Below are positions 1 to 55,510 of a DNA stretch of 64,000 nt, piece by piece. Positions within the stretch are counted from its first letter, which is position 1, and every line of letters begins with the position of its first letter. The translations under genes were made by a program, and so were the position numbers. The stretch is from Fistulifera solaris (Eukaryota > Bacillariophyta > Bacillariophyceae > Naviculales > Stauroneidaceae), in assembly GCA_030295235.1 (NCBI GenBank), contig AP026173.1, positions 1-64,000 on the forward strand, given 5' to 3'. The notes under the pieces were generated by a model. The model made no database searches, was not told the DNA's origin, and saw only the letters and a list, made by a program, of their open reading frames with translations.

Positions 1-446
1 CCCTAACCCTAACCCTAACCCTAACCCTAACCCTAACCCTAACCCCTAACCCTAACCCTCAACCCTAACCCTAACCCTAACCCTAACCTCCTAACCCTAA
101 CCTCCTAACCCTAACCCTAACCCTAACCCTAACCCTAACCCTAACCCCTAACCCTAACTCCTAACCCTAACCCTAACCCTAACCCTAACCCTAACCCTAA
201 CCCTAACCCTAACCCTAACCCTAACCCTAACCCTAACCCTAACCCTAACCCTAACCCTAACCCTAACCCTAACCCTAACCCTAACCCTAACCCTAACCCT
301 AACCCTAACCCTAACCCTAACCCTAACCCTAACCCTAACCCTAACCCTAACCCTAACCCTAACCCTAACCCTAACCCTAACCCTAACCCTAACCCTAACC
401 CTAACCCTAACCCTAACCCTAACCCTAACCCTAACCCTAACCCTAA
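1..446. repeat. Telomere, CCCTAA repeats
   Basis: Tandem CCCTAA hexamers run from base 1 to 446, so this window begins at a chromosome end and the G-rich TTAGGG strand points outward. The outer 160 bases contain variant units (CCCCTAA, CCTCCTAA, CCCTCAA); the inner 280 bases are almost perfect. The array ends abruptly at CCCTAATGTCAG. A long Leu-Gly open frame across it is only the translation of the repeat. Confidence 0.98.
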
Positions 447-1758
447 TGTCAGTGGGTCTGCCAGACAGACCGTGCTGCAGCGAATTGTCTTACTGGTGCA
501 CAATGTCCAATATCTTTCCTATTTCCTATTTTCCCACCTATTCCTCTTTTTCCAATTATCTGCTTGTTCCTTCTACCTCATTTACCTCTTCCTAGTTACC
601 ATATTCCGCTTTACCTAGTTCTAAGTTCCCTTTTCCACATTCCAAGTTCCATATCCCAATTTCCAAATTCCTAACCCTGTAGAAAGAAAAGAGAGACAGT
701 AGCTCTTTCATGGTGCTGATATTGTCATCTTGACACGGATGCACGCTCATCGTCGTTGCGTTTGTTGCGCGTTTTCGCCTTTTGATAATCAAAAACAAAA
801 AACGCATCTAACCTACTCTAAAGAGAATGCAAGAACGACGGACATACCAATTCCAAAGATAATCAAGAACGAAAATTGTGGCATGACGCCAGCAAAACTT
901 CATTCCAAGAAATTCCAAACGAACGAACGAACGAACTAACGAACGAACGAACGAACGAACGAACGGTAACAAGACAGCCGCGATAGACAACTTCCAAAGA
1001 TTATCAAGCCGCATAAAAGCACAGGGCACGAAATTCAAGACTGTTCAAAGCACCTAAGTCGAAGTTGACCATGGCGCGCATGCCGCTGTACAGTGAAATA
1101 ACAAAAATCAATCTTTCGAACCCAAACTTCGTATACATCATATAAAAATGCAGGAAAGACGAATCTGAAAGAAGCAACCGCGAGATATCGATTCATTCAC
1201 GAAAACGCTGGTGAGCTTAAAAGTGCCACAGCAGCTCTTTCTGAATGAAAACGCGATTATTTGTTGTAAAAACGACTTTCGACCCATTCAAACAAGGAAC
1301 CTACTATATTGTCATAAAAAAAGGAAGAATCGGTACGAAGATACATCAAAAGAGCAACCGCGAGTAGCTGTAAAGCAGCTCGGAAGACACTTTGGATGAC
1401 ACCACAGCAGCGCTTCTACTTTGACGCGATTTACAGCTCTGTTGAATACTACACGAAAGCCTGCGGCGCCCTTGGACGATCTATTAGAACGAAATAAAGC
1501 TACTAGAAAAAGAATCAACGAAAAGTATAACAAATTGACTATTTTATTACTGTCGATAGCTTTGCATTGCAATGGTGATGCTTGTTTATTGTTGTTCGCG
1601 GTTCGCGCTGAGTGTTTGTGGTGGTTGGTCATTTGTCATTTCGATCACGTTTGTCTTTTGAAATTGCAGTACTGTTTCGGATGATATTCAAACTAATTCC
1701 AATAGAACGGTAAATTGATCGGAATCTTACACTTTACCCCACAGTAAAGGTTTTTTCC
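447..1758. other. Subtelomeric non-coding stretch
   Basis: No gene is supported here. Bases about 500-680 are a degenerate pyrimidine-rich tract made of short variants of TTCCTATTTCC and TTCCAAGTTCC ending in CCTAACCCT, possibly decayed telomere-like sequence. Short open frames further right have no recognisable domain and no consistent coding signal. Confidence 0.6.
918..966. repeat. AACG tetranucleotide microsatellite
   Basis: About twelve copies of AACG with one AACT variant. The reverse-complement repeat (TTCG)n occurs again at about 17326-17359, beside the PH-START gene. Confidence 0.9.
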
Positions 1759-4700
1759 TTAGACCGCAAAGCTCGAACAAGTCCTCATAAAGCCATTTTG
1801 GTGTGTCTCCGATAGGATCCCCATTTGACAAAGAGACTGAAAGCTTTGTCCGTCAGATGTTTTGTTGCGCTCGCGGTTATCACTGTGATCCAGCAGTACC
1901 GAAATGATCCATCCGACGTTCTCTGAGACCTTCGCGATTCGATTGTAGGACTGAATCATGTTGCTCATACTAAAAATGTTGCCAGCCACAAGAACATGCA
2001 CGCATTTGCGATTCTCGTTTCCTACCAAGCCACAAGTTGTTGTAATGTAGATTTGGATTTCACCATTCGTCCATCGTCGAAAGGCGCTTTGATCTCTCTT
2101 CATCGTCAGAATGACCAGTAATAACGCATGGAGTGAATCCACGTTGCAAGAGCCATTCTTCTAGCTGTGCTGCCGAGTCCGATTGTATTGCAAATGATGT
2201 GCATTGACACTCCTGAGTTTAGTTCTTTGACTCAGCTAACGACAAGATTGCTCATGCTAGCCACTAGGTCGCCCACGACCTAGTAGTCCACAGTGAAGCC
2301 TTGATCTACTTCTCCCATTACCTCGTCACGAAGAATTTTACGAGGAGGCACTTTGTTGAGGTTAAAAATGCGAACACTGGATCAATGAGCGCAAAGTCCA
2401 GCGTCCCGGAAAGAGTTATCACTGGAATATCTAGCGCTCCGATCTCTTGAAGCTCTTTGTACTCATTGCGAAAAGAGACTTCGGACAAGCATGTATGTAC
2501 CTCATCCATAACAATCGCGTGCAAAAGTCCGCCTTGAGGCAGCTTTTGTGGTTCTTGAAGAGCTCCACAAACTCCCGACAGCAACAAAAACACAACGTCA
2601 AGCTTTCCTAGTTTGTGATCGCCTTTGATTTGAGCAGCGATCTGTGCCACTGAAACGTCAAGCCTGCATTTCCCTATCCGAACTGATGTGTTTGCCAAAC
2701 GGGCCTCAGCCGATGCAATGTGATGTTTGTTCAGTAACTTGTAGGGTGAAAGAGCAATGATTGTGTTCAACGGCTTGTTGGAGAACCACGCCGCCAAAAG
2801 TGGCCCAAGCCATGCAAGTGATTTACCACTTCCGCAGGGGGTACCGACATGGCCGTGGTACTTCCCGCTTAGAACCATCTCCACCATTTGTCGCTGTGTG
2901 ATGTCCAGGAACTGGAAACCTGGTCCGTATCGCTGCCGAAGTCCCCCTCAGATGTCGTCACTGTCGATGCGCGCTTTTGTAGCAGAGTGGTACTTCTCCA
3001 AGTGACATTTGAAAGATCCGAATCAGCTTGATGCCTGCGCCTTGCAACTTTGTATGATATCGTTCGACATGTGTTCTCTCTGAATGTCCATGCTGGTTCG
3101 CCACAGATTCAGTTGCTGTCAAAATGGTGTGATCGACTTCGCCAAACAAGACATTGTGCCACGTTGAAAACACCTGCCGAATTTCCGTCTTTCTGGGTGT
3201 GTTTACAAGATCAAAGAGTGTCCGAGCAGCTTGCCGCATGCTGTAATGCGAGTTTTCGTTATTTGGAAGAGCTAGTAGCAGATTGTTGCCAAAAGGATTC
3301 AACTGCTGAAGTGCCGCCCGATACAAGATAAACACACGACACATTTCAGTTGGCAGAACATGCATGACCTTTCGCTTCACTGCAGCCTGTTTTGACACAA
3401 GTTTTACAGTCTTGTTGACCACCAAACCATACTCGGCCGTCCCTAGCGCAAAGTGAACTTCAGACAACTTCAGATGTCTGACTTCGGTAAGGAGCCCAAC
3501 TCCAAAACCGAAACAGTCAAATGCCAAATCAAGGTATGCAGCCACTTGCTGAAGCATCTCTGTCCGTGTTTCAGCGTTATCGCCATTCATTTGTAGATCC
3601 TCCGATGATATTGTTTGCTCTCCATTCTGCATTGTAAACGACAATGTTGCCTCATCAACGTGATGGACCACAACCGGCTCAAGCAGTTCAGAAAAGAGGC
3701 CCAGCTTTCCCCGCGGAAGATGCTAGCAAATGCTTCTTTGCACTTCTCCAGAGCTGCAGGTAGGAGACCAGAAAAGAAGTCTCTGTGATAGGTATTGTTG
3801 CCGTAGTAGATGTTTGTGCCGTCCGTCTCCGCCGTCTTGCTGTAATTTTTGCGTGCCGACATGTCTCGTGTAGCACGAATCAATCCAGAAAGCATTGCGG
3901 GCACCCTTGCACCTCACACTCTCTCAGCAATAAACCGCATTGTCTTGTCTCTCATTGTGTCTTGCTGCACGGCAAAAGAGCTTATCCGTGCTGCTCGCAA
4001 CATGTGGAGGACACGAGAAACCATGGAGGCCACCTCTCCACAGTCTCGGAAGCGAAGTTTCTTCTTGGTCAGTACCATGGAGCCGAACAATGCAGTATAG
4101 TTCAACATCGGTTTGCGGTGGAAAAGCCCTATCTTCTTCAAGGTATGCCGCCAGCATTTCCAACACAAACAACTGTGGATCTTGGGCTTGGGACTCGGTT
4201 CGGATGAATTCGGGAGAAATGCGAGCGGATGATAAATGAGCCTGTTCGCCACATGAAGCATACGAAATGCTTTAACTCCCGTAGTAGATCAACAATGTTT
4301 TCATAGAGAACAAAGGTTGCACCGTAGGTCGTGGTCGCTCACATCTAGCCCAGGAAAAGTCATCAGGCTTGCACGTGTCTTTGGATCAATCATCTTGATA
4401 AGAAGCTCTGTGTGATTCTTTCTCATCCATTCTTCCAGCCATTTGTGAATGAGTTCAAGCTCGGGCTCCATAGTCTGATCAATCTCTTTTCGCGGCGCGG
4501 AACAATGAATTCTCGAAACTTAGTATCAAAATCCAAGCCCAAGCAATGGCAAAGATCCACAAGAGGCTGAAGATGGGTGACATACGGTGTGGTCTCCTCT
4601 CCTCCACAGCGATATTTCTCAATCATCTCGATCGTTCGTGCAAAGTCAAACGTCTTGCTGCGCCCGCGATTTGTGTGAGGGAACTCGCGGTAGAGCAGAC

Positions 4701-5684
4701 AGCTTCCGGTTCTCGCCAACGTAAAGCTTCATTTTCCTCTGCTTGCGGCTGGGGCACTGTTTCTTGCGTCGAGATCTTCCTGCATGACCGGTCAAGATTG
4801 GACGCATCAATGTTCGCCTTTCCACAGTGAAGACAGATGAAAGCGTCCCTCATATCAAACGCCTGTGTCTTCCAGATCTTCATTTCGTCTGCCAGTTCCG
4901 TTGCAGTAGCTTGATCAAAGGAGAAGCCGGTGTGGTTTGCACGAACATGTTCAAAGATATTGGCAGCGGTAGTTTCATTCAAAAGAGCATCTTCCTTGAC
5001 AAATGTTTTGCAAGCAAGGCACTTCAATTTACCTTCCGTGAAAGTAAAACATGTTGAATGGCTTGGGAGGCGAGTTGACAGTTTCGGGTGGAACTGATTG
5101 AGCCGTTGTTGTCCAAGTCCGTGGCAGTACGCTTATGAGATGCTGGAGGAAGTTCCAACTGAGTCGTCAGAGTCGTAGCCGTAACTGTAGCCATAGTTGG
5201 AAGTTCACTTGTCACCAGAGCTGGTCCACCAGAATGATCTCCACCACCCAGACTGGAGTTGCATCGATAAGAGCCACAGCATTGTTGGTTGCTGTCATCG
5301 TTGCAGATGCAGTTGCAGTTCTGATTGGAGGAGTTGGAATGAGCAAAGGAGTTTGATCAGTCGTAGGACCAACAAGAAGTTCTTCAAAGTCATCATTGCC
5401 ATCCGTCATGAGCATCGTAGGAGGAGCTGGGAACAACGAAGAAGCTGGAGTTGTCACGGGTGCAGTTCCAGTAGCAGTTGGCGACCACAAGAAGGAAGGA
5501 GCAGGTGCTGGGGCACCTATCTCAGCTGTTGGATGATCTCCACTGCCCAAGTCCATAGCGGTAGTAGTTGCAGTCGCCGGGCCAGACCAGCCGTCCCATC
5601 TGTCCCAGCCATCCCGTCAGTAACATTCTCGCGGTCAGGAGTTGGGTAGTCACCGTTGAAAAGGTCTTCAAAGCTGTAGTCCAT
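1759..5684 (-). pseudogene. Subtelomeric RecQ-like helicase relic with BED-like finger
   Basis: I read one decayed minus-strand gene in several frames. From the N-terminus: a Thr/Pro-rich tail from an ATG at 5684; a BED/C2H2-like finger at about 5060-4930 (KLKCLACKTF, then HVRANH); a middle region with GHSERTHVERY at about 3089-3057, which has the His-to-Tyr spacing of tyrosine recombinases; and a RecQ-type DExH helicase. In the helicase I see a Q motif (QRQMVEMVLSG), Walker A GTPCGSGKS (2845-2819), motif Ia ALSPYKLL, DEVH (2506-2495) and SGT. The second helicase lobe lies at about 2205-1930 (FAIQSDSAAQLEEWL, then ITTTCGLVG and QSYNRIAK, matching motifs V and VI). A TGA at 2948-2950 interrupts the frame just upstream of the Q motif, and frames change near 5045, 3680, 2300 and 2100. 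Telomere-linked RecQ helicases are known in fungi; the relation here is inferred from architecture. An intron-containing active gene is less likely. Confidence 0.7.
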
Positions 5685-7143
5685 CTTGAGATGAAGGAAA
5701 GCAAGGCGTAAAAGGTAGAAGCAACAAGCAGAAAGCAAGGAGCAAGAAAGCACTATTGTCGGAACGATTACAACCTGTGGTCAAGCACAAATTGTGGGAA
5801 GGAGTGCCTCATCACTTTTCAAAAGAATATCTGATATTCCGGTCAAAATGCGTGCTCACAGATCATGAATAGCCCTTCACCGAGGACCAGCAAGATTCTA
5901 ACACTTTATTTGTAGTAAATCACTAAGTGCTTTCTTGCTTATTACGACTAATATAATTCACACTTCAATCTTCTCAGCTAGTTCAAGTTGTCAAAGCGTT
6001 GAACTGTAGTAATTGTTGTACTTATTCCGAAAGATATCCACAGTTGTTGCAGTCAATCGGCCATTATCTGTGCAGAATTTGTTATTTCTGGTCTTGAGAA
6101 TTTACTATAGCAATTAACGTACCTAGACCCGTAGGATTGTACTGATTTTTGCACTGTCAAAAATCGTTTAATGTCGCAGGGTGGTGTTTGATTACACGCG
6201 TCAGTCGTGTCCGTTTCGGAATCCTTTTTCTCAAAACGACAACAATCAACCATGACATCGGAGGCCGTCATTTACTTCATTCGACATTTACTTTTCAATT
6301 ATATAAAGACACTGCTGTCAAATACTATTTATTCCTACGAGGCTCTACGAAGAAACGCGCGGATTTATTCAAAATGACTGTGCAGCGGGCTTTCAAAGTA
6401 CATGCCGCATTTTCCGTCGAAAAGAAGGGATGTTTGAGGCCCTTGCGAAGCCGTATCGAAAAACAATTCATATTCTCGGCTCATATGTAACTACTGCTAT
6501 TTAAGGTCGACTGCTGTCTTGTTATGATTGATCAAAATAGTGCGTTTGAAAGTCAAAGAAAGAGAATCAAAGGTACGTTCGTTGACCGACCGAAAATTTC
6601 GATTCTTCAAATGCAAGCATTAGAGACGCGATTTCGGCACAGAAATCGTACAATAACTTTAACATGAATTTTTAAAAAGCTTTGATTGGGTCTGTGCTTG
6701 TCAAATCGTAGCGCTTTCTTAGATTTCAATATTCGAACGTCGGTCGCCAAATTCGACAAAATTGATAAAGTCGAAAGCGTATCATTTTGCGCTCGCTTAT
6801 CGTTCTCATTGTATCAATAATCAAACGATTGTTCCAATACATTTGCGAAATAGTCGATTCACGTGTCGTAGCTACCGCTTTAGCTATTTGTAATTCGTCT
6901 TGTCGAAAACTATTCATCGCAAAATATCGACAAAATTTCATCCCACTTCTTCTACTTTCACTCCTAAGGCAATTACAATAGCCGACACCCAACTTAACCT
7001 TTTGCCTTGTCAAAGGACCGCCCTACCGGGCCGTCCCCTTAGCAGCGGACGTGCGTAAGAAGAGGTGTTCCCCCATCCTTGACCCTACCCAGGGGGGGGT
7101 GCGAAACCTAACGATTGCACCTTAGCCGCGTAGAACTAAGCCT

Positions 7144-7236
7144 AGTACTAAGTTGGGGTTTGGGGAGAGATCCCGCTCGCTGCGCGGTTTCCTTTCCCCC
7201 TCTCCGCAAACACCCAAGTTACTGTGGTTAGTACTT
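7144..7236. repeat. Imperfect inverted repeat, about 93 bp
   Basis: AGTACTAA at the left end pairs with TTAGTACT at the right end. Inside, TTGGGGTTTGGGGAGAG pairs imperfectly with CTCTCCGCAAACACCCAA. This could be a small MITE-like element or a foldback. No target-site duplication is obvious. Confidence 0.45.
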
Positions 7237-7335
7237 GCTCAAGGGGGTGAAAAGATGGAACCCGATGAAACAACACGCCCGGGTGATTCTTTTACTAAGC
7301 CAACAATACAAACGATATAGATTAGCTAAAGTGAA

Positions 7336-7460
7336 AGGGGGGAGAGACGGGGAATCGCTGCGATGAGAGGGGGAGAGAGGGGGAATCGCTGCGATAAGAG
7401 GGGGGAGAGAGGGGGAATTCCGGCGATGAGAGGGGATTCCGGCGATGAGAGGGGATAAAC
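7336..7460. repeat. Short purine-rich tandem repeat
   Basis: Four degenerate units combine GGGGGAGAGA with AATCGCTGCGATGAGAG or ATTCCGGCGATGAGAG. It is locally duplicated and not coding. Confidence 0.7.
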
Positions 7461-8099
7461 TAAAGAATTTAGGGATAAAAGGGGATAGAGGGGGATGTGC
7501 GGCGAAGTGAGGCATACTTAGCGATGATGACGTTTCGAAGGTGGTTTCGCCTTAAAGGATTTCTTCGCAACGTAGATCAACTTGAGTGATAGATAATTGA
7601 ATCATTACCGCTACGACGAAGTGAACATTTTTCTTTGACTAATGAAAACCCTTCGGGCCTTGATTATTGTCCTTTAACTTTACCGTAAGTCTCGTAGAGC
7701 GAAACGTGTTATACGAAAGGACTTGACGAGCCGTTGCGGCCACCGCGAAAGCGTAACCGCGAAAATTTTGCGGGTGTCCCGGTTAATCTACTACTACAGT
7801 ACCAGGGTACTTTCATCATTCATAACGCACGATGATCGATGATTGATGATTGATGATGTAGAATATTATTCTTTATGATTAATGATTGATTTTGATTTGA
7901 ATTATGAACCATGAGCCATGAGCAATCATAAGGTTCCTACGGTGTCTATTTTCATAAGTATTACTACGTATTTGATGGCCTGTAAACTGGGAAGCATCTT
8001 AGAGACTTCGAAAATAGCTTTGTAAGGTATTTTGGTACGTCTGGGCCTCGGCCTCGATTTCCTATTTTGCATTATTTTGTGGCCTTCTACTTGCTTTGC

Positions 8100-9237
8100 A
8101 TGTTTCATCTTGCCAGTCCGCTGATTGCCGTCGCTCATCCGTTCAAAGTTATCAACGCTGCCGATCATCATTCGTCCGAAAACTTATCAATGTGTGACAT
8201 TGCGAAGGGGAAAATCACAGTCGCACTAGACTGGACGCCCAATACGAACCATGTTGGCATGTATGTTGCTTTGCAAGAAGGTTTTTACACCGCAGCAGGG
8301 CTTAATGTAACGCTCGTTCCTCCTAACGAGAATGAAGGAGCTGTTACGCCGCCCCGTCGGGTAGCCGCTGGCACAGCAACATTCGCAGTTGGGGCTTCTG
8401 AAACTGTCGTTTCGTTTGCCACAACTTCCACGCAACAAATGTCGCGCCTTGTGGCGGTTGCGGCTCTCCTGCAAGGCTCGACGTCTGCTATTTGCACTCT
8501 TCAAAGTTCTGGAATCGACACTCCGGCGAAATTACAAGGTCGACGTTTCGCTTCACATTGGGGCCGTTTTCTCGGATGCCATGGTTCGTACCATGGTAAA
8601 TAATGCAGGGGGCGACGGTAGCAAAGTAATTTTTCAGCCACTTCCAGGCCATGGCTACGCTGTGCCTGAAATCTTTGAAGCTGGAAGTGTTGTTGCTAGT
8701 TTTCTCGAACGCGGTCTTTCGGATTCAGCTTGGATCTTTTCTCATTGGGAGGGTCTCTTAGCGGCTCGTGCTGGACAGAAATTGAACGAGTTCAGCTGGG
8801 ATGATTATAATGTTGCGTACGGATATGCGCCGATCTTGTTTTGCCGCCCTGATACTATCTCGGACCACATGGACAAGGTCAAGGCCTTCTTGGCTGCTAC
8901 CGAGCGTGGATATAAAATTGCGGCGTCGGATCCGGTTCGGGGAGCAAAAGCGTTATGCGCCTGTGGACACCCATCGCTGAAAGACAAGGAATTTGTCATG
9001 GCGTCGGCGCAGGCTATTGCACCCGCTATTTTAAGCAAGACAGGAAGCTGGGGTACCATGACAATGGAGCGTTGGCGAGCTTTCGTAGACTTCTTGACGG
9101 ACAATAAGATTATTGTTGATCACGATGGCGTGGAATACGATCGATCCAAGATTATTGTCAGTGAGCTTTTCACTAACGATGCTTTGCCATGCGATTTGCG
9201 CGGCTTAGTTATAAAGAAGAATATAGTTGATAAATAA
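8100..9237 (+). CDS. NMT1/THI5-like periplasmic-binding-fold protein
   Basis: The protein matches the NMT1/THI5-like family, which includes the fungal pyrimidine precursor synthase Thi5 and bacterial substrate-binding proteins. The diagnostic N-terminal strand and helix, VALDWTPNTNHVGMYVALQ, is clear, followed by a sliding lobe with VGASETVVSF and the second lobe (YGYAPILF, WRAFVDFL). The frame opens upstream of the first ATG at 8100, which would add a weak hydrophobic leader; an internal ATG at 8190 gives a cytosolic form starting MCDIAKGK. The frame changes at the GGGG run 8560-8563 between GRRFAS and GAVFSDAM with no intron signals, so it is either an assembly indel or a real frameshift. 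Thiamine pyrimidine synthesis is possible, but the NTNHVG version also occurs in transport-type members, so function is open. It converges with the phosphoglycerate mutase gene 43 bases away. Confidence 0.75.
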
Positions 9238-9280: not shown

Positions 9281-11866
9281 TTACTTTCCCTGTACGGCTG
9301 CGACCGGATTCTTAATTGAATTTATAACTTCTTGCTCTTCTGCAGTCAGCGAAAAATCATCGTCGACGGATATCATGCACTCCTCATCCGGTGATCCATC
9401 TTCGTTGAGACAAGGTCGGAACAGGTAGCTTGCCGCTTTACCAAAATTGTGCACTTCCAAAGGATCACGACCGCTACCATCGTCAAGAAGCTTTACGCAT
9501 TTCGACTTGACATCGAAAATGATCGGAAGACCGTTCGGAATTTCTAGCTCAACAATCTTATCCTCCGGTATATCACAAAGATGCATCAACAAGCCCCGAA
9601 TAGCATTCTCGCTACTGGAAATTAAAACACGCTTTCCCTGGTCAACTGCTTGCGGCACGATGCACTCCGTGAAAAAGGGTATTGTCCGGTCCATGCAATC
9701 TTTCAGCGATTCCGATTTGGGAAGTTTGCGAGCAAGTGTCGGTCTTCCCTTCTCAATACTTCGGATGAGGGACTCGCGCACAGAATATCGCAGATCAGAC
9801 AAGTATTTCGAATAGCGAGGGTCGTTGCCAGGATAATGAGGAGAAAACGAAGAGACCTTTGGCGGTGGTGTTTTATAGCCTCGTCGCCATGCTTTGAACT
9901 GCGTTTCGCCATGACGCTGCTTTACCATTTGTTTCGAAAGTCCGGTGAGCTCTCCATACATTCGCTCATTCAGTCGCCAAGTTTTAATGATAGGGAGCCA
10001 TAAACAATCCATTTCCGAAAGCACATGCCACGCCGTTTCGATCGCTCGTGAAAGCCACGAAGTATAAACCACATCGAATTCAAATCCGTACTTTTTTAGC
10101 AGCCGACCAGCGTCTTTGGCTTCTTCGATTCCGTCTTGGGCAAGTCTATGCGGCAAATTGTGAGTTCAGTCGGATCCACGAACAAACGCACAACCGCATA
10201 CTTACGCGACATCGTCCCATCCCGTGAATAGTCCGAGCAAGTTGTGACCCGTCTTGCCATGTCGAATGATAACAATAACTGGATCGCGTCGAACGGGCGT
10301 CTTTCCCATTCCGGGCACCAACACTTGGCTGGGCACCGAAGTCACGCACGGCTTACTCGAGATAACGTATGGAGAAACAGGCGATTCGTCGTCGTCATCA
10401 TCATCACCTTGCGAAAATTCCATACTACCATCATCTTTGAACGTGGGAAGGTCTGGGTCAAATTGGTCTCCGCGCTCCAATGCCTGCAATCCGTCTGACC
10501 AGATTTGATCTTCGATAAATTGCATAGGCTTTCCGTTGTTGCCGTCACTCCCATCGTCTTCGGGAGCTGCGTTTGGATCAATAAACTGCCCTGCCCACTC
10601 ACCTAGCTCTCGCTCTGCACGCAACTTCAACAGACTTCGCTCGAGAGACGTCAAAGGTACCGACATTTGGCTTGAGCTCAGCGCCAGTGTATTGTTGTAT
10701 CCAGGGACTTGATTCGCCCACTCCTCTTCACGTTTGAGAGCTTCTTTCAGCAATCCGGGTTTTTCCAGAAATAAACCCTTCATATGCACTTGACTCACGG
10801 TCGACTTTTCGGCGGAAGGAGGAATTGGCTTTAAATCACGATCGAATTTGTAAATGATGGGAATGCCGGTCGGAATCGAAACCATTTGAATATCTTCATC
10901 CGAAATCCCATCAATTGTCTTTACTAAACCACGCAAGGTGTTTGCGTGTCCCACTACCATGACATTTCGCCCATGGCGCAATTCGTACTTGATTTTATCT
11001 TCCCAGACAGGCGCCGTTCGCTCCATACAATCCAAAAGCGATTCGGTCATGGGAATTTGCTCCAGCGACAAATCCGCATATTTCCGATCACGACCGGGCC
11101 AATACTCGTCGTTGGGTGTCAACGGAGGAGGTCGTGTACGCAAGGATCCTCGCCATTCTTGTACTAGATCTGCACCCAACCGTTCCGCCGTCTCGAATTT
11201 GCACAATCCAGTCAATGCTCCGTACATGCGTTCATTCAATCGCCACGTTTTAAAAACCGGCTTGTAGATTTGTTCCATTTCTTGTAGCATGATCCACGAC
11301 GACATGATTGCCCGTTTGAGTCGGGAAGTAAAGACAATATCGATTTCGTATCCACCTTCTAGTAATAAACGCGCCGCATGTTCGACTTCCCGACGACCTC
11401 GCTCTGACAGACCCGGATCAGCCCATCCAGTGAACGTAGCATTCGCATTCCACAGTGATTCTCCGTGACGAACGAGTATTAGTGTTCCCGGCTCGACTCT
11501 CGGTTTCGGAAAGATAACATTGTTGATGCTTTTTAGGACTGTAATCATTTTGGAAGATTCGCTGCGCATCGAGTTGTATCCGTCATCGTCGTCTAATTCC
11601 AAGGGCCGACGACCGAACAACTTTCTTAGTAGTTTCCCTTTCTCTTGCAGACTGTTTTGATAATTGCCTGACATCGACATGGAGTATCCGTTGGAAATAG
11701 GTCGAGAAAGATCGTCGCTTGCATTGCTTCGACTTTCTGTGTCTGTCGAAGCTTGACGCGCAACAGCGCGTGTTCGAGCGACCCCAAAGGGTCTTTGAAA
11801 GGCTACAGTGCCATATTTGCCCGTTGAGAGTACCAAGATACAGAAAATATCAATATAATGCCGCAT
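9281..11866 (-). CDS. Tandem-domain phosphoglycerate mutase, plastid-targeted
   Basis: Two cofactor-dependent phosphoglycerate mutase domains lie in one protein, interconverting 3- and 2-phosphoglycerate in glycolysis. Domain 1 has RHGESLWNANATFTGW, LNERMYGALTGL and VVGHANTLRGL, so both catalytic histidines are present. After an acidic linker (QGDDDDDDESP), domain 2 has RHGKTGHNLLGLFTGWDD and LNERMYGELTGL, but the second histidine block reads LISSSENAIRGLL, so the His is lost. One 60-nt intron, 10146-10205 (GTAAGT to CATAG), splits an Ala codon within domain 2 (DDV-A-LAQDG). I chose the ATG at 11866 because it starts a signal-like helix, MRHYIDIFCILVLSTGKYG, followed by TVAFQRPFG, which resembles the diatom plastid motif with Phe. 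The reading frame has no breaks. Domain 2 may be regulatory or structural. Confidence 0.9.
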
Positions 11867-12286
11867 TTTGAAATAAAACAGTTTCTTCTTGATGATAAAG
11901 AAAACAGTGTTGTTGCGAGAACGAGAAGCGACGAGATCGAACGACATGGTGAGAAAAAAACGTCGCGGACGTCGGCTTTCTCGAAACGCGACGAACACGT
12001 TCGTTGCTTACGTCTTACGTCACAAGTAGAAATCATCGCACAGAAGATCCAGAAACACTCAAACTACACTTTTCCTCACAGTCGCACCAGATGGTCGGTT
12101 CGTTGTAGGTTCATCAGTGCGACATTTCCGCTTGACACCTTTTGATTGCGTCAAGTCAAACAGTCACGAATCATCTCGAAAACCCATCACTTTTGCAAAC
12201 AACACTTTCTCGCATCATCACTTTGTATCCCTATTATCCTTCAACCTCACTCTTTATCATACTTTACCCTTACAAAAGAAGAAAAT

Positions 12287-43903: not shown

Positions 43904-46900
43904 ATGACTGAGGCGAATAACGCAAACGCAACGACAGCCGTTAATCCGTTGAAAACAGATGCAGATCTCTTGTCGCTCTTGAAACGACTGGATGGCATTC
44001 ACAAATACAAAACCTTTCAACGATGGAAAGCGCGATTCTTGGATCGTCTGGAATCTTTCTTGTACGAGGCGGGCATGGGACCAGCAGATGAATCCTGTCA
44101 AGCGTTTTCGACTTTGTTGCAGAAACAAATTCGGCGGGGGCAAGCCGTACAAGCGCATGTTGCCCACGGCGAATTGACTGCCGAGAAAAAGACCGTCAAA
44201 GCGGCGTTGGCGCTGAATGAAATGTGCACTTTGTTAACGAATGCTGTACAAGAAACGGAATTGTTGATTCCTGCGAATACAAAGGAAGAGAAGCAACGAG
44301 GTTACACAAAGTTCCATCTAGGAGCCGTATTGATTCGACAAGGATTTCATCAATATCAAGCGATGCAAGCCATTGAGGCGGATTTGCAGCAACTGTCGCG
44401 CGATTTAGAACAAGTGGCCGATAAGCAACAGCAAGAACTCTTTCATATGTATCACACACAGGTACAGCGATTTTGTGATGTCATGGCCGATTTGAATTTG
44501 TATGAAGTCATGAAGAAGTGTTTGCAATTTGCGCAAGCTCCCGAAGAAGAAGAAAGCAGTGATGAAGAACCCATTGTCATTCAAATTGTTATTCATACAC
44601 ACGACGGGAAGAAATTGACATTGACGCTGGATCAGACAGAGACGATTGGGAACATTAAGGAGAGTATCGTGGCAGCATGTGGTATTCCGGTCGAACGACA
44701 GGTGCTGACCTTTCAAGATACTCTTCTGAACGATCCCGACGCTACTTTGGTGGGTTGCGGTATTTCAGATCAGTCGGAATTGAAAGTCGAACCATTCCGT
44801 ATACCCATTACAGTCAAGACAATGGATGGAGTAATTCATTCCATGCAAGTCGACCCGACGGATTATTTGACGAGTATTAAACAGCAACTGACGGAACGAA
44901 CTGGCATTGCACCCAACAACCAAAACCTCACTTTGCAGAACACACCACTAGATGATTTGAAAACTGTATCCGAGAATGGTATTGCAGCAGAGAGTCAGTT
45001 AGAAATGGAACCCAAGATGTTGAACTTAAACGTCACGCTGCCCGGTGGGAAATTTGTGGTAGTATCAGTTCCCCCTTCGGATACGGTAGAGGATTTAAAA
45101 GAAAAAGTTGCCCATCAAACGGGGCTCGCGGCACCAAGACAAGTCATAAAGGTCGCGGAACAGGCACTGCCTGTTGATCAACCGCTGCGCGATTTGGGTT
45201 TGAATGATGGTTCAAATATCGTCGTCGACCTCTTTCAAATACCGATTCAAGTCAAAACTATGGACGGGAAGTCGATATCGTTGATGATCGAACCGACCAA
45301 GTATTTAAGTGACGTGAAACGGCAATTGGAAGCGGATTCGGGTTTGCACGCCGCCAACATGCAATTGAGTAGAGACGACGAGGATGGGAACTCTGAAGTG
45401 CTGGACAACGATATGAAGACAGCGCAAGATTATGATATCCGGGCGGATGCGGTTTTGGACTTGGCACCCAAGAAGATGCCGATCCGGGTTCAACTTCCGG
45501 ATGGAAAAGAAATAGAAGTCGAAATTAGTCCTAGCGATACGGCAGATGTTATCAAACAAGCGGTTTATGACAAAAGTGGTTTGGCCCCTTCGCGACAAAA
45601 GTTAATGTATCAAGAAGAAGAAATGCCGCTGGATGAAACGGTTCGAAAGATGGGCCTACAACCTGGGGATTTACTTCAGGTGGATTTTAATAAGGTGCCT
45701 ATTATAGTTAACACGATGGACGGACGACAAATTAAAGTCGATATCGATCTTGCGGACAGCCTTGGTGATATCAGAAAGCACTTGGAAGTAGAGACGGGCC
45801 TTCCTGCGAACAACATTCAATTGTTCTTGGACGGGAATGCACTAGATGACGACCAAAGGACTGCCGAAGACTATGGTGTTGAGGCTGGCAGTGAGCTCGA
45901 CTTAGAGCCTAAATCAATTACCCTAACAATTGAGTTACCCGATGGAAAAACGATTGCGCTGGTTGTTTCACCGCAGGATACGACTCATGATATAAAGGCA
46001 AAAATTCAGGCCAAGTGCGGCTTGGCCCCGGAACGCCAAGTGGTTTGTCATAATGGAAAAGAATTGCCGCCAGATGGAACAAAAGTACGAGAGATGGGTA
46101 TTCCAGCTGATGCAACGTTACAAGTGGGTTTACATAAAATCCCAATCGTCGCAAAGACTATGGATGGACGCAAGATCCAAGTGGACGTTGAACCTGCTAC
46201 GACTCTTGCTGACCTAAAGAAGCAAGTCCAAGACGAGGCAGGGATTACAGCGGACAACATCGCGATGAGCATGGGCGGCCATCCTTTAGATGATGATGGT
46301 AAATCTCTCAACGATTATGGAATACGAGCGGGTAGTGAGTTGGATTTGGAGCCTAAATCTATTGCTGTGACAGTCGAGTTGCCTGACGGTACGAAACATC
46401 CTATCACGATTCGCCCCAGCGATACGATAGGCAATCTCAAGCAAGCAATCGAGGACGCAACTGGGATCCAAGCTCCTCGCCAAGTTGTTCATTATCAAGG
46501 TAACGAAATTAAGCCTGACCAGACAGTTCGGTCCATTGGTATTCCCGACGGTGCGACGCTGCAAGTTGGCTACTTTAAAATACCCATTGCTGTCAATTGC
46601 GTTGATGGTTCCCAATTGCATGTAAACATTGAATTGACTGCTACGTTAAGCGATATCAAGAAAGTCATTGAGCAAGAATCAGGAGTACCCGCAAACAATC
46701 AGAGCTTGAGTTTCGACGGCAGTCCGCTGGAGGACGATAGTAGCAAAACAGCTGTCGATTATGGCATTCAGGCAGGTAGTGAAATCGATATGGAACCCAA
46801 CACGATGCGATTACAGGTTGAACTTCCGGACGGGTCAACTATACCATTGTTTGTCAGACCGGCGGATTCTACCGATGCAATCAAAGATTTGATTCATAAA

Positions 46901-48187
46901 GAAACGGGTATAGCTCCTCCACGGCAGTCCTTGCATCACACAAACGGTCAGCCTCTTTCTGTAAACAAGACGGTACGAGAACTGAATCTGAAAGACGGAT
47001 CGACGATTCAGGTCGCGCTTTCTAAAGTACCTGTGACAGTAAAAAGTGCCGATGGAAGAGAAACTGAGCTCATGGCAGATCTGCACGATAATCTGATTGC
47101 CATTAAAGAGCAAGTTGAAAAAGAATTTGGTTTGCCGGTGAGCAATCAAAACCTACTGATTTTGGATCGTATCCTCAAAGACAATGACAGGCCTGCTAAA
47201 GATCAGGGTGTCGTTTCCGGATCGATTCTTTACATGGAACCGAAGCTTATGAATATTACAGCTATCTTACCGGACGGTACGCATCATGAATTGCAAGTCC
47301 AGCCTGGCGACTTGGTCGATTCGGTATCGGATCAAATTGCTCATGTCTCCGATTTGGCGAGTCATCGACAAGTGCTCAAACTAGATTCCCGCACTTTGAA
47401 TAAGGTCGAGACACTACGTGATGCGCGAGTCCTACCCAATTCTACAATCCATGTGAGTATCTATACTATTCCCATCACTGTGCAAACAGCCGACAATAAA
47501 AGCTACGATTTGAACGTCGAGCCAACGTCGATGATTAGTGAACTGAGGAAAACACTTGAACAGGAAACGGGCATTGACGAAAAGAAGCAAATATTGATGT
47601 ACAATGAAACAGAACTGAAAATGGGAACCATTAAAGCCGGCGGTCTACTACCCAAATCTGTTGTGCACTTGAGTGTTCGCAAAGACTCTATTATCTTCGT
47701 GGATGTGAAATGCGGTACCCTCTTTGCCGTCGATCGCGATGAAGTGATTGAACGGAAAATCTTGACAGCCAATCAAGGCAATCGTCTCGACTTTTTAGAA
47801 GCGACTCAAGACAGCAAAGTTAAAGAGAACATGAAGAAAGCCATGCTGAGTTCCCCATCTCTCGGTGTAGCGCCACAAGTCGTCGTCGTGTCAACCCAAG
47901 TGGATGACTACGAGTTGGAAGAAGCGGCCAAAGTCGCGAGTATGTGGGGCGTAAGTTTGAAGAAGCGTGAAAAGAACAAGAAAGGTGAAGAGTTCATTTT
48001 TGTGGATCCGAAAACGGGCGCGTGTGGCGAATTGTCTCGCAAAAGGTATCTCGACATGACCTTTATTACATTGGAAACATTATCAAACGGCGAAGAAACG
48101 GTGGCCGAACGAGAGACGGATACAATGACTTACGACAAGTACGTGATGGACATTCGTCGCGTTTTTGACATCAAATCGGCGACTTAA
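43904..48187 (+). CDS. Protein with fourteen tandem ubiquitin-like domains
   Basis: A single unbroken frame of about 1427 residues. Residues 1-222 are helical and end in an acidic linker (APEEEESSDEEP). Residues about 223-1262 are 14 consecutive ubiquitin-like domains of about 74 residues each. They alternate between two types: even-numbered ones start IPIxVKTMDG and have a GIxANNQ-type turn, odd-numbered ones start with VxLPDGK and have GLAPxRQ; each even-numbered one ends in LDLEPK or MEPK. None ends in the Gly-Gly used for conjugation, and no protease site is seen, so this is a rigid or elastic multi-UBL scaffold and not a polyubiquitin precursor. The last 165 residues are a separate basic domain (KRYLDMTFITLETLSNGEE). 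ATG chosen at 43904 because the upstream in-frame ATG at 43850 gives a poor leader. Function is unknown; proteasome or shuttle-factor binding is a guess. Confidence 0.85.
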   Translation: MTEANNANATTAVNPLKTDADLLSLLKRLDGIHKYKTFQRWKARFLDRLESFLYEAGMGPADESCQAFSTLLQKQIRRGQAVQAHVAHGELTAEKKTVKAALALNEMCTLLTNAVQETELLIPANTKEEKQRGYTKFHLGAVLIRQGFHQYQAMQAIEADLQQLSRDLEQVADKQQQELFHMYHTQVQRFCDVMADLNLYEVMKKCLQFAQAPEEEESSDEEPIVIQIVIHTHDGKKLTLTLDQTETIGNIKESIVAACGIPVERQVLTFQDTLLNDPDATLVGCGISDQSELKVEPFRIPITVKTMDGVIHSMQVDPTDYLTSIKQQLTERTGIAPNNQNLTLQNTPLDDLKTVSENGIAAESQLEMEPKMLNLNVTLPGGKFVVVSVPPSDTVEDLKEKVAHQTGLAAPRQVIKVAEQALPVDQPLRDLGLNDGSNIVVDLFQIPIQVKTMDGKSISLMIEPTKYLSDVKRQLEADSGLHAANMQLSRDDEDGNSEVLDNDMKTAQDYDIRADAVLDLAPKKMPIRVQLPDGKEIEVEISPSDTADVIKQAVYDKSGLAPSRQKLMYQEEEMPLDETVRKMGLQPGDLLQVDFNKVPIIVNTMDGRQIKVDIDLADSLGDIRKHLEVETGLPANNIQLFLDGNALDDDQRTAEDYGVEAGSELDLEPKSITLTIELPDGKTIALVVSPQDTTHDIKAKIQAKCGLAPERQVVCHNGKELPPDGTKVREMGIPADATLQVGLHKIPIVAKTMDGRKIQVDVEPATTLADLKKQVQDEAGITADNIAMSMGGHPLDDDGKSLNDYGIRAGSELDLEPKSIAVTVELPDGTKHPITIRPSDTIGNLKQAIEDATGIQAPRQVVHYQGNEIKPDQTVRSIGIPDGATLQVGYFKIPIAVNCVDGSQLHVNIELTATLSDIKKVIEQESGVPANNQSLSFDGSPLEDDSSKTAVDYGIQAGSEIDMEPNTMRLQVELPDGSTIPLFVRPADSTDAIKDLIHKETGIAPPRQSLHHTNGQPLSVNKTVRELNLKDGSTIQVALSKVPVTVKSADGRETELMADLHDNLIAIKEQVEKEFGLPVSNQNLLILDRILKDNDRPAKDQGVVSGSILYMEPKLMNITAILPDGTHHELQVQPGDLVDSVSDQIAHVSDLASHRQVLKLDSRTLNKVETLRDARVLPNSTIHVSIYTIPITVQTADNKSYDLNVEPTSMISELRKTLEQETGIDEKKQILMYNETELKMGTIKAGGLLPKSVVHLSVRKDSIIFVDVKCGTLFAVDRDEVIERKILTANQGNRLDFLEATQDSKVKENMKKAMLSSPSLGVAPQVVVVSTQVDDYELEEAAKVASMWGVSLKKREKNKKGEEFIFVDPKTGACGELSRKRYLDMTFITLETLSNGEETVAERETDTMTYDKYVMDIRRVFDIKSAT

Positions 48188-54424: not shown

Positions 54425-55510
54425 ACGGAACAAGAATCACCGATTCCAGAGTATCTGGACCCAAAACAGATTTTCTGTAAGTCCCAAACGAACAATTCCA
54501 GAAAATCTGGAACATGCAAAAAAGTGTTTGTCTGACGAAAACGCCCATTCCAGAATTTCTGGAACTCCCACAGATTGTCCGCGAGACAGAATGAGCGGTT
54601 GCAGATTTTCTGCAACGTGCACTATATCTTTGTGTGAACTTGAATCACCGATTCCAGAATATCTGGACCCAAAACAGATTTTCTGTAAGTCCCAAAAAAC
54701 ATTTCCAGAAAATCTGGAACATGCAAAAAAGTGTTTGTCTGACGAAAACGCCCATTCCAGAATTTCTGGAACTCCCACAGATTGTCCGCGAGACAGAATG
54801 AGCGATTCCAGATTTTCTGCAACGTGCACTATATCTTTGTGTGAACTAGAATCACCGATTCCAGAATATCTGGACCCAAAACAGATTTTCTGTAAGTCCC
54901 AAACGAACAATTCTAGAAAATCTGGAAAATACAAAAAGTGTTTGTCTGACGAAAACGCCCATTCCAGAATTTCTGGAACTCCCACAGATTGTCCGCGAGA
55001 CAGAATGAGCGATTCCAGATTTTCTGCAACGTGCACTATATCTTTGTGTGAACTAGAATCACCGATTCCAGAATATCTGGACCCAAAACAGATTTTCTGT
55101 AAGTCCCAAACAAACATTTCCAGAAAATCTGGAAAATGCAAAAAAGTGTCTGTCTGACGAAAACGCCTATTCCAGAATTTCTGGAACTCCCACAGATTGT
55201 CCGCGAGACAGAATGAGCGATTCCAGATTTTCTGCATCAAGAATCACCGATTCCAGAATATCTGGACCCAAAACAGATTTTCTGTAAGACTTAAACAGAC
55301 GATTCCAGATAATCTGGAAAATGCCAAAAATTGCATTTTTGACGAAAACACCCATTCCAGAATCTCTGGAACTCCCACAGATTGTTTGTAACACAGAAAA
55401 GCAATTCCAGATATCTGTAACGTGCACTTTATCTTTGTGTGAACAAGAATCACCGATTCCAGAATTTCTGGAACGGTGCAAAACATCTGTGTGACGCAAA
55501 ACAACGATAT
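54425..55510. repeat. Palindromic 207-bp satellite array
   Basis: Unit starts marked by GAATCACCGATTCCAG lie near 54434, 54642, 54849, 55056, 55241 and 55447, giving periods of about 208, 207, 207, 185 and 206 bp. Each unit holds several spaced palindromes: TTCCAGAATATCTGGA, CAGATTTTCTG, TTCCAGAAAATCTGGAA, TTCCAGAATTTCTGGAA and TTCCAGATTTTCTGCAA. Between them are constant linkers such as GTTTGTCTGACGAAAACGCC. Because 207 is a multiple of three, long open frames exist on both strands, but no start, domain or codon signal supports a protein. Confidence 0.92.

Follow-up and report, generated by a model that had tools for sequence, protein, structure and literature searches.

A probable family of telomere-linked RecQ-like helicase genes at chromosome ends of an alga

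What kind of gene lies just inside the telomere at the start of contig C27, and is it an intact gene, a relic, or a descendant of a mobile element? The stretch analyzed (the window) comprises the first 64 kb of this contig, in an assembly of 61 contigs and 51.7 Mb. The contig end is formed by a telomere repeat array, (CCCTAA)n, at 1..446. A protein-coding gene on the minus strand starts with an ATG at 5684 and extends down to 1759, with its reading direction towards the telomere; its frames are broken in the C27 assembly. According to the best-supported reading, which is considered moderately probable, 1759..5684 belongs to a family of telomere-linked RecQ-like helicase genes in an alga, outside the fungi. 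The host is a photosynthetic eukaryote, as judged from 87 matches to the light-harvesting family PF00504 across the genome. Family matches often fall in contig pairs, which suggests the presence of two haplotypes or subgenomes.

The helicase domain is the most securely identified part of the gene. Domain 1 of a DEAD/RecQ-like helicase (2318..2947, minus strand) matches PF00270 (DEAD) with an E value of 1.5e-13 and 51.3 bits (cut-off 26), and contains the Walker A motif GTPCGSGKS (2845-2819) and the sequence DEVH (2506-2495). A DEAD-type RecA domain 1 with Walker A and DExH motifs, by which RecQ family members are recognized, is present. A fragment of domain 2 follows at 1762..2160 (minus strand) with a stretch resembling motifs V and VI (2073-1924). 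This fragment does not itself match Helicase_C, though it aligns, with 56% identity over 50 residues, with a frame on contig C30 that matches this family near the cut-off (2.1e-4, 22.0 bits, cut-off 23.5). The helicase motifs are located about 1.5-2.4 kb away from the telomere array. Their order, as described in an earlier sequence-only reading of the locus, was borne out on the minus strand with recomputed coordinates. The RecQ-like assignment made there is supported by the PF00270 match and by a search of the PDB with a profile of two gene copies (A3), in which RECQL5 accounted for the top 8 of 37 sequences at E<=1 (best 9.1e-4). The helicase piece alone gave no PDB match at E<=0.001, and PADLOC models gave weak helicase matches only (best 3.5e-4).

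The number of frame changes and stops needed to read the gene provides a further measure. Over the 3926 bases of the minus strand 16 such breaks were required, compared with a mean of 35.3 and a minimum of 28 in 30 mono-nucleotide shuffles. The opposite strand required 25 breaks (shuffle mean 33.3, minimum 27) and is likewise below chance. For the copy on C30 the figures are 9 breaks, with a shuffle mean of 42.5 and a minimum of 36, and 33 breaks on its opposite strand; the upstream flank (5913-7252) required 13, with a shuffle mean of 14.3. The PF00270 match and nine colinear protein segments shared with C30 confirm that the observed motifs and the gene are real and beyond chance.

Copies at other chromosome ends, which the sequence-only reading had named as a check in advance, were searched for at the protein level in the 61 contigs with four pieces (two from C27, two from C30); copy counts obtained in this way are lower bounds. 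Contig C50 (34.9 kb) carries telomere repeats at its end, runs parallel to C27 and contains a stretch 96% identical to it in a DNA search with positions 1-7000. It is taken as a second assembly of the same chromosome end, though possibly of the other haplotype. One further locus was found, on the plus strand of C30 from an ATG at C30:851326 to about 855700, and TTAGGG repeats form the end of that contig, at 858319; in each case, then, the reading direction is towards the gene's own telomere. The gene is thus telomere-adjacent in constant orientation at more than one chromosome end (C27 with C50, and C30), as in fungal telomere-linked helicase (TLH) families. A genome-wide search with PF00270 gave at least 38 matches with 37 of 187 candidates scored; the C27 gene is not listed among them, and the search is uninformative about its copies. 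Strong DEAD-box matches (about 7e-41) were observed a few kb from the contig starts at C11:5541-6149 and C12:6932-7540; these probably represent a different, ordinary DEAD-box gene.

The two copies are strongly diverged. The nine colinear segments, two of which overlap by 13 bases, cover 597 codons, and their amino-acid sequences are 29-56% identical. At codon positions 1, 2 and 3 the identity is 0.549, 0.601 and 0.375, in frames picked by protein similarity, a choice that favors positions 1 and 2. The divergence spares codon positions 1 and 2, and this contrast fits divergence under protein constraint. The C27 finger piece described below matches only C27 and C50 in the genome search.

An ordinary RecQ-family paralogue might have come to lie near two chromosome ends by chance, with no special link to the telomere. 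Only two copies were found, subtelomeres gather duplicated genes, and RecQ genes are widespread. Against this, both loci are near a telomere, in the same orientation and behind the same flank, the searches with the four pieces gave no match elsewhere (a lower bound), and the product has additional N-terminal domains and no RQC or HRDC match. Such a chance placement is considered improbable.

The surroundings of the gene point to exchange between chromosome ends. A telomere-associated block at 446..678 is 94-99% identical on C9, C15, C25 and C30, and fragments of it were counted on a total of 25 other contigs (C50 left out). On the other side of the gene, an upstream subtelomeric block at 5913..7328 is 90% identical to C23, and its part 6078-7252 is shared with C30 at 83% identity; some 200 bases of this flank are also present on C21. 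The C27 and C30 copies sit behind this one common flank, whose end lies 394 bp upstream of the ATG in C27 and 363 bp upstream in C30. On C23 (C23:1-1707) telomere repeats are joined at the equivalent of 5913, 229 bp short of the ATG position. That telomere-capped end is therefore without the helicase gene and without everything else distal to 5913. The best explanation for flanks that are 83% identical, beside genes that differ at 62% of the third codon positions compared, is an exchange between chromosome ends that would have homogenized the flanks and not the gene. The helicase genes themselves have probably also been exchanged between ends. A G-rich tandem array (7332-7456) is located at the border of the shared flank, and the alignment of C27 with C50 breaks at 7225-7304. 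Adjoining the subtelomere, at 7986-9237, is a gene that by eye resembles NMT1/THI5; its frame is broken in C27, and elsewhere in C50.

Several results weigh against a telomere-linked RecQ-like helicase family. NCBIfam model TIGR00614 (recQ_fam) matched the partial protein with 3.4e-7 and 29.4 bits, far under its whole-protein cut-off of 219.8, and the best RECQL5 value given above leaves the RecQ assignment weak. No RQC or HRDC match was found in the scanned pieces of C27 or C30, in which broken frames could hide one, and no match to OrsD/DUF3505, a domain that several of the fungal telomere-linked helicases are reported to have, was found in the scanned pieces up to E 1 and E 10. The C30 copy carries a Cys-rich tail with CxxC spacings (no Pfam match near the cut-off), of which no counterpart was seen in C27. 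Copies were found at two loci only (a lower bound), far fewer than in the fungal cases, and the amplification on many chromosome ends that characterizes TLH genes was not seen. No relatives were found in IMG/VR, prokaryote genomes, plasmids or phages, collections that hold no eukaryote genomes as such. Within the gene, a MAFFT alignment of C27 and C50 contains more mismatches (75) than gaps (53, of which 45 are of one or two bases). Both assemblies share a net frame change at 2970-2947, beside a run of five G in C27, and the C30 copy has an in-frame stop (L052:3660-3662) in addition to the 9 breaks it requires; some breaks may thus be real.

The absence of relatives in IMG/VR and the phage collection, searched with patterns that reach close relatives only, also counts against an insertion derived from a giant virus or a virophage. 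Large DNA viruses often encode helicases with additional domains; a viral origin is nevertheless regarded as highly improbable.

The breaks bear directly on the term relic, which the sequence-only reading had applied to the gene. A true pseudogene, left by a helicase that was once functional and now decays at chromosome ends, would be compatible with a telomere-linked helicase family. Such decay would account for the many frame breaks in the C27 and C30 copies, including the shared frame change and the C30 stop, for the lack of the Cys-rich tail in C27, and for differences between C27 and C50 that are denser here (71 mismatches and 144 gap openings over the first 7.2 kb) than in the interior (30 mismatches and 166 gap openings over 25 kb). 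Even in the interior, however, the differences are rich in insertions and deletions, and within the gene blastn gave 48 mismatches and 69 gap openings. The mismatches also have the look of base-calling error: 47 of the 75 in the gene lie no more than 3 columns from another difference, and 16 of the 35 isolated mismatches in 447-7225 are a T in C27 and a C in C50 directly after CG. Deamination at CG changes the C or G itself, and for this reason the T/C change is attributed to systematic miscalling, perhaps where CG is modified. Isolated mismatches in the open C27 frames fall on codon positions 1, 2 and 3 in 15, 3 and 3 cases, a distribution unlike that expected from selection; much of the skew to position 1 is explained by this one change in CG context.

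Each assembly is moreover open where the other one is broken. C50 has 182 codons in one frame, from the CKTF of the finger to EKYRCGG, where C27 needs two frames; C27 carries the 209-codon helicase piece in a single frame, and there C50 yields three matches, of which two contain stops. The C27-C30 divergence, greatest at third codon positions, likewise argues against decay. A decaying pseudogene is therefore thought fairly unlikely. As the breaks differ between the two assemblies and the differences resemble base-calling errors, the term relic is not supported and should not be assumed: the broken look of the gene is probably for the most part sequencing error and not decay, and the underlying gene may be intact. 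The locus also serves as a warning that miscalled bases near the ends of long-read assemblies can give a gene the look of a pseudogene. C27 and C50 differ at many bases, among them some beside DEVH and at the presumed Box I codon discussed below, and single residues are accordingly uncertain.

Upstream of the helicase the product contains a Cys/His finger of the form CxxC ... H-x4-H (5021-4932, minus strand) and a second CxxC stretch (4835-4782, minus strand), which together span 4782..5021. In Pfam scans of 4623-5132 neither BED nor any other finger model exceeded its own cut-off, and for this reason the earlier term BED-like remains a description.

Between the finger and the helicase a 254-codon open frame (2961..3722, minus strand) may encode a tyrosine recombinase catalytic domain. 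This frame and its C30 counterpart contain three boxes in tyrosine recombinase order, which in C27 are Box I (3494-3456), EIRQVF (3185-3168) and the GH-x8-Y sequence GHSERTHVERY (3089-3057). The boxes were chosen after the sequence had been seen. In the first, C30 reads GRLAEVHRMEMGDL where XerD reads GLRVSELVGLTMSD; the C30 pattern G-R-L-A-E-V-x2-M-x-M-x-D-L resembles Box I with its Arg, which is Leu in C27 and lies in a codon that differs in C50. The second, EIRQ[VA]F in both copies, was aligned by profile comparison to the HxLRHxF box; in place of the box II His, C27 has Thr and C30 has Leu. The third reads GH[ST]-x2-TH-x3-Y in both copies. Of the catalytic residues C30 has Arg I, Arg II, His III and Tyr and lacks His II. 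The distance from Arg I to Arg II is 105 residues (XerD 99), that from Arg II to His is 31 (XerD 23) and that from His to Tyr is 9 (XerD 9). As an alternative box II, YSMR in C27 and HKIG in C30 was set aside; the profile alignment prefers EIRQ[VA]F, and both candidates were chosen after the sequence had been seen.

Statistical controls of this alignment gave mixed results. Column shuffles reached the observed score in 2 of 200 cases against five recombinases and in 25 of 300 against ten; against the catalytic part the score was reached in 12 of 200 local and 85 of 200 global comparisons. The local profile alignment to the catalytic part places the three boxes in register. Five known recombinases, each compared singly with the rest, obtained probabilities of 3 to 97% (SSV1 13%, P4 3%), and the profile test is for this reason insensitive. 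Integrase families gave no match in Pfam, NCBIfam or PHROGs, the profile of the recombinase candidate gave no PDB match up to E 10, and PF00589 had no match at E<=0.001 across the genome. Structure prediction was unusable, with a mean predicted local distance difference test score (pLDDT) of 36.1 for the recombinase candidate (4 rows) and 39.4 for the helicase domain (3 rows); as it also failed for a helicase domain that is secure by profile, this failure is uninformative on the recombinase. A tyrosine recombinase domain is accordingly a possibility, with its boxes in order and not statistically secure.

A mobile-element origin had been proposed in the sequence-only reading, and of this proposal the order of the boxes has held up, while statistical security and, in the preferred alignment, the box II His have not; profile searches of the kind suggested, made with the open frames one by one, recovered a DEAD helicase domain and a RecQ family match below its cut-off, and neither DUF3505 nor an integrase family. 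In its full form the proposal is that a Crypton-like element, with a tyrosine recombinase and a RecQ-like helicase, settled at telomeres; cleavage and rejoining of DNA would fall to the central domain, and replication or strand invasion would be aided by the helicase. This origin is compatible with a telomere-linked helicase family. The Box I-like stretch with its Arg in C30, the two further boxes common to both copies with the His-Tyr spacing of XerD, their register in the local profile alignment and the one clear shuffle control of four (2 of 200) speak for it. The three remaining controls are weak or negative, however, and the lack of an integrase, PDB or PF00589 match, the Leu at the Box I Arg of C27, the missing box II His, the longer Arg II-His distance and the post hoc choice of the boxes all count against it; no element ends or target duplications were seen, for which no systematic search was made. 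A Crypton-like origin is regarded as unlikely. Equally doubtful is the broader proposal that telomere-resident mobile genes, with a tyrosine recombinase-type domain fused to a RecQ-like helicase, form a lineage of their own in algae, the genes being far diverged at third positions and their flanks kept alike by exchange. If true, this lineage would link Crypton-type recombinases with telomere-linked helicases, and recombinase-helicase genes would predate, or have moved between, fungi and algae. A comparable His-Ser...Tyr motif may precede the helicase in fungal telomere-linked helicases.

On the reading preferred here, a telomere-linked helicase family, 5684-1759 (minus strand) would be one member of a small family of RecQ-like DNA helicase genes, which have diverged strongly and may work like the TLH genes of fungi and the helicase encoded by the yeast Y' element. 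The subtelomeric segment would consist of the proximal flank (5913-7328), the gene, the distal block (446-678) and the telomere, and parts of it would be exchanged between chromosome ends by recombination. The gene, transcribed towards the telomere, is predicted to encode a finger at the N-terminus, followed by a central domain that may derive from a tyrosine recombinase and by a RecQ-like motor; the C30 copy adds a Cys-rich tail. The product would most likely act on DNA at chromosome ends and promote recombination-dependent end maintenance, by which it would secure the gene's own persistence there. Expression, enzymatic activity, a role at the telomere and spread by recombination are inferred.

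Further inside the window, two neighboring minus-strand frames at 9281-11947 resemble phosphoglycerate mutases by eye and are perhaps a tandem duplication. A 1427-codon frame at 43904-48187 resembles, by eye, a row of many ubiquitin-like repeats. A 207-base tandem array with 3.9 copies and 96% matches is located at 54428-55236.

Telomere-linked RecQ-like helicases have been described from fungi, where they have been proposed to contribute to survival when telomerase is lacking. A passage on Mycosphaerella graminicola gives 13 subtelomeric RecQ copies, of which 7 are full length (PMC4522978). In the sections of a Colletotrichum higginsianum study that treat telomere-associated helicase elements, these have a single orientation and DUF3505 and, like the C27 and C30 genes, no detectable RQC or RecQ zinc domains (PMC5576322). 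For Ustilago maydis, an excerpt reports that telomere-linked RecQ-like genes (UTASa) rise in strains without telomerase RNA (PMC10532341). In a long-read study of two diatom genomes (PMC8147415) the main text does not contain the words helicase, RecQ or subtelomer, and no algal or diatom telomere-linked helicase or helicase-recombinase fusion was recognized among the papers listed in searches of the openly licensed literature. A gene of this type at algal chromosome ends would make it testable whether these helicases are an ancient or a repeatedly recruited class, and whether they descend from recombinase-bearing mobile elements.

Among solved structures RECQL5 and RECQ1 are the best matches of the two-copy profile; the algal genes differ from them in their weak scores, the lack of an RQC or HRDC match, the link to telomeres and the extra N-terminal domains. 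With Cryptons, known here by description only, and other tyrosine recombinases they share three boxes in order, the first and last spacings being near those of XerD; they differ in that three of four controls are non-significant, the box II His is missing, no element ends were seen and no family matches. Compared by description only, the fungal TLH genes differ in host and in number of loci (two found in the alga), the algal copies being 29-56% identical per segment, without an OrsD/DUF3505 match, with a possible tyrosine recombinase-like domain and, in C30, with a Cys-rich tail. With the fungal genes, C. higginsianum being the case compared, they have in common a DEAD motor, which in the algal genes may include Helicase_C and may be closest to RecQ, a position adjacent to the telomere and a constant orientation. 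The yeast Y' element is many-copy and homogenized, and the algal family is neither. As in C27 and C30, a helicase gene is contained in the Y' element within a subtelomeric repeat beside the telomere repeats, as described in a passage of the M. graminicola paper (PMC4522978) and compared by that description only.

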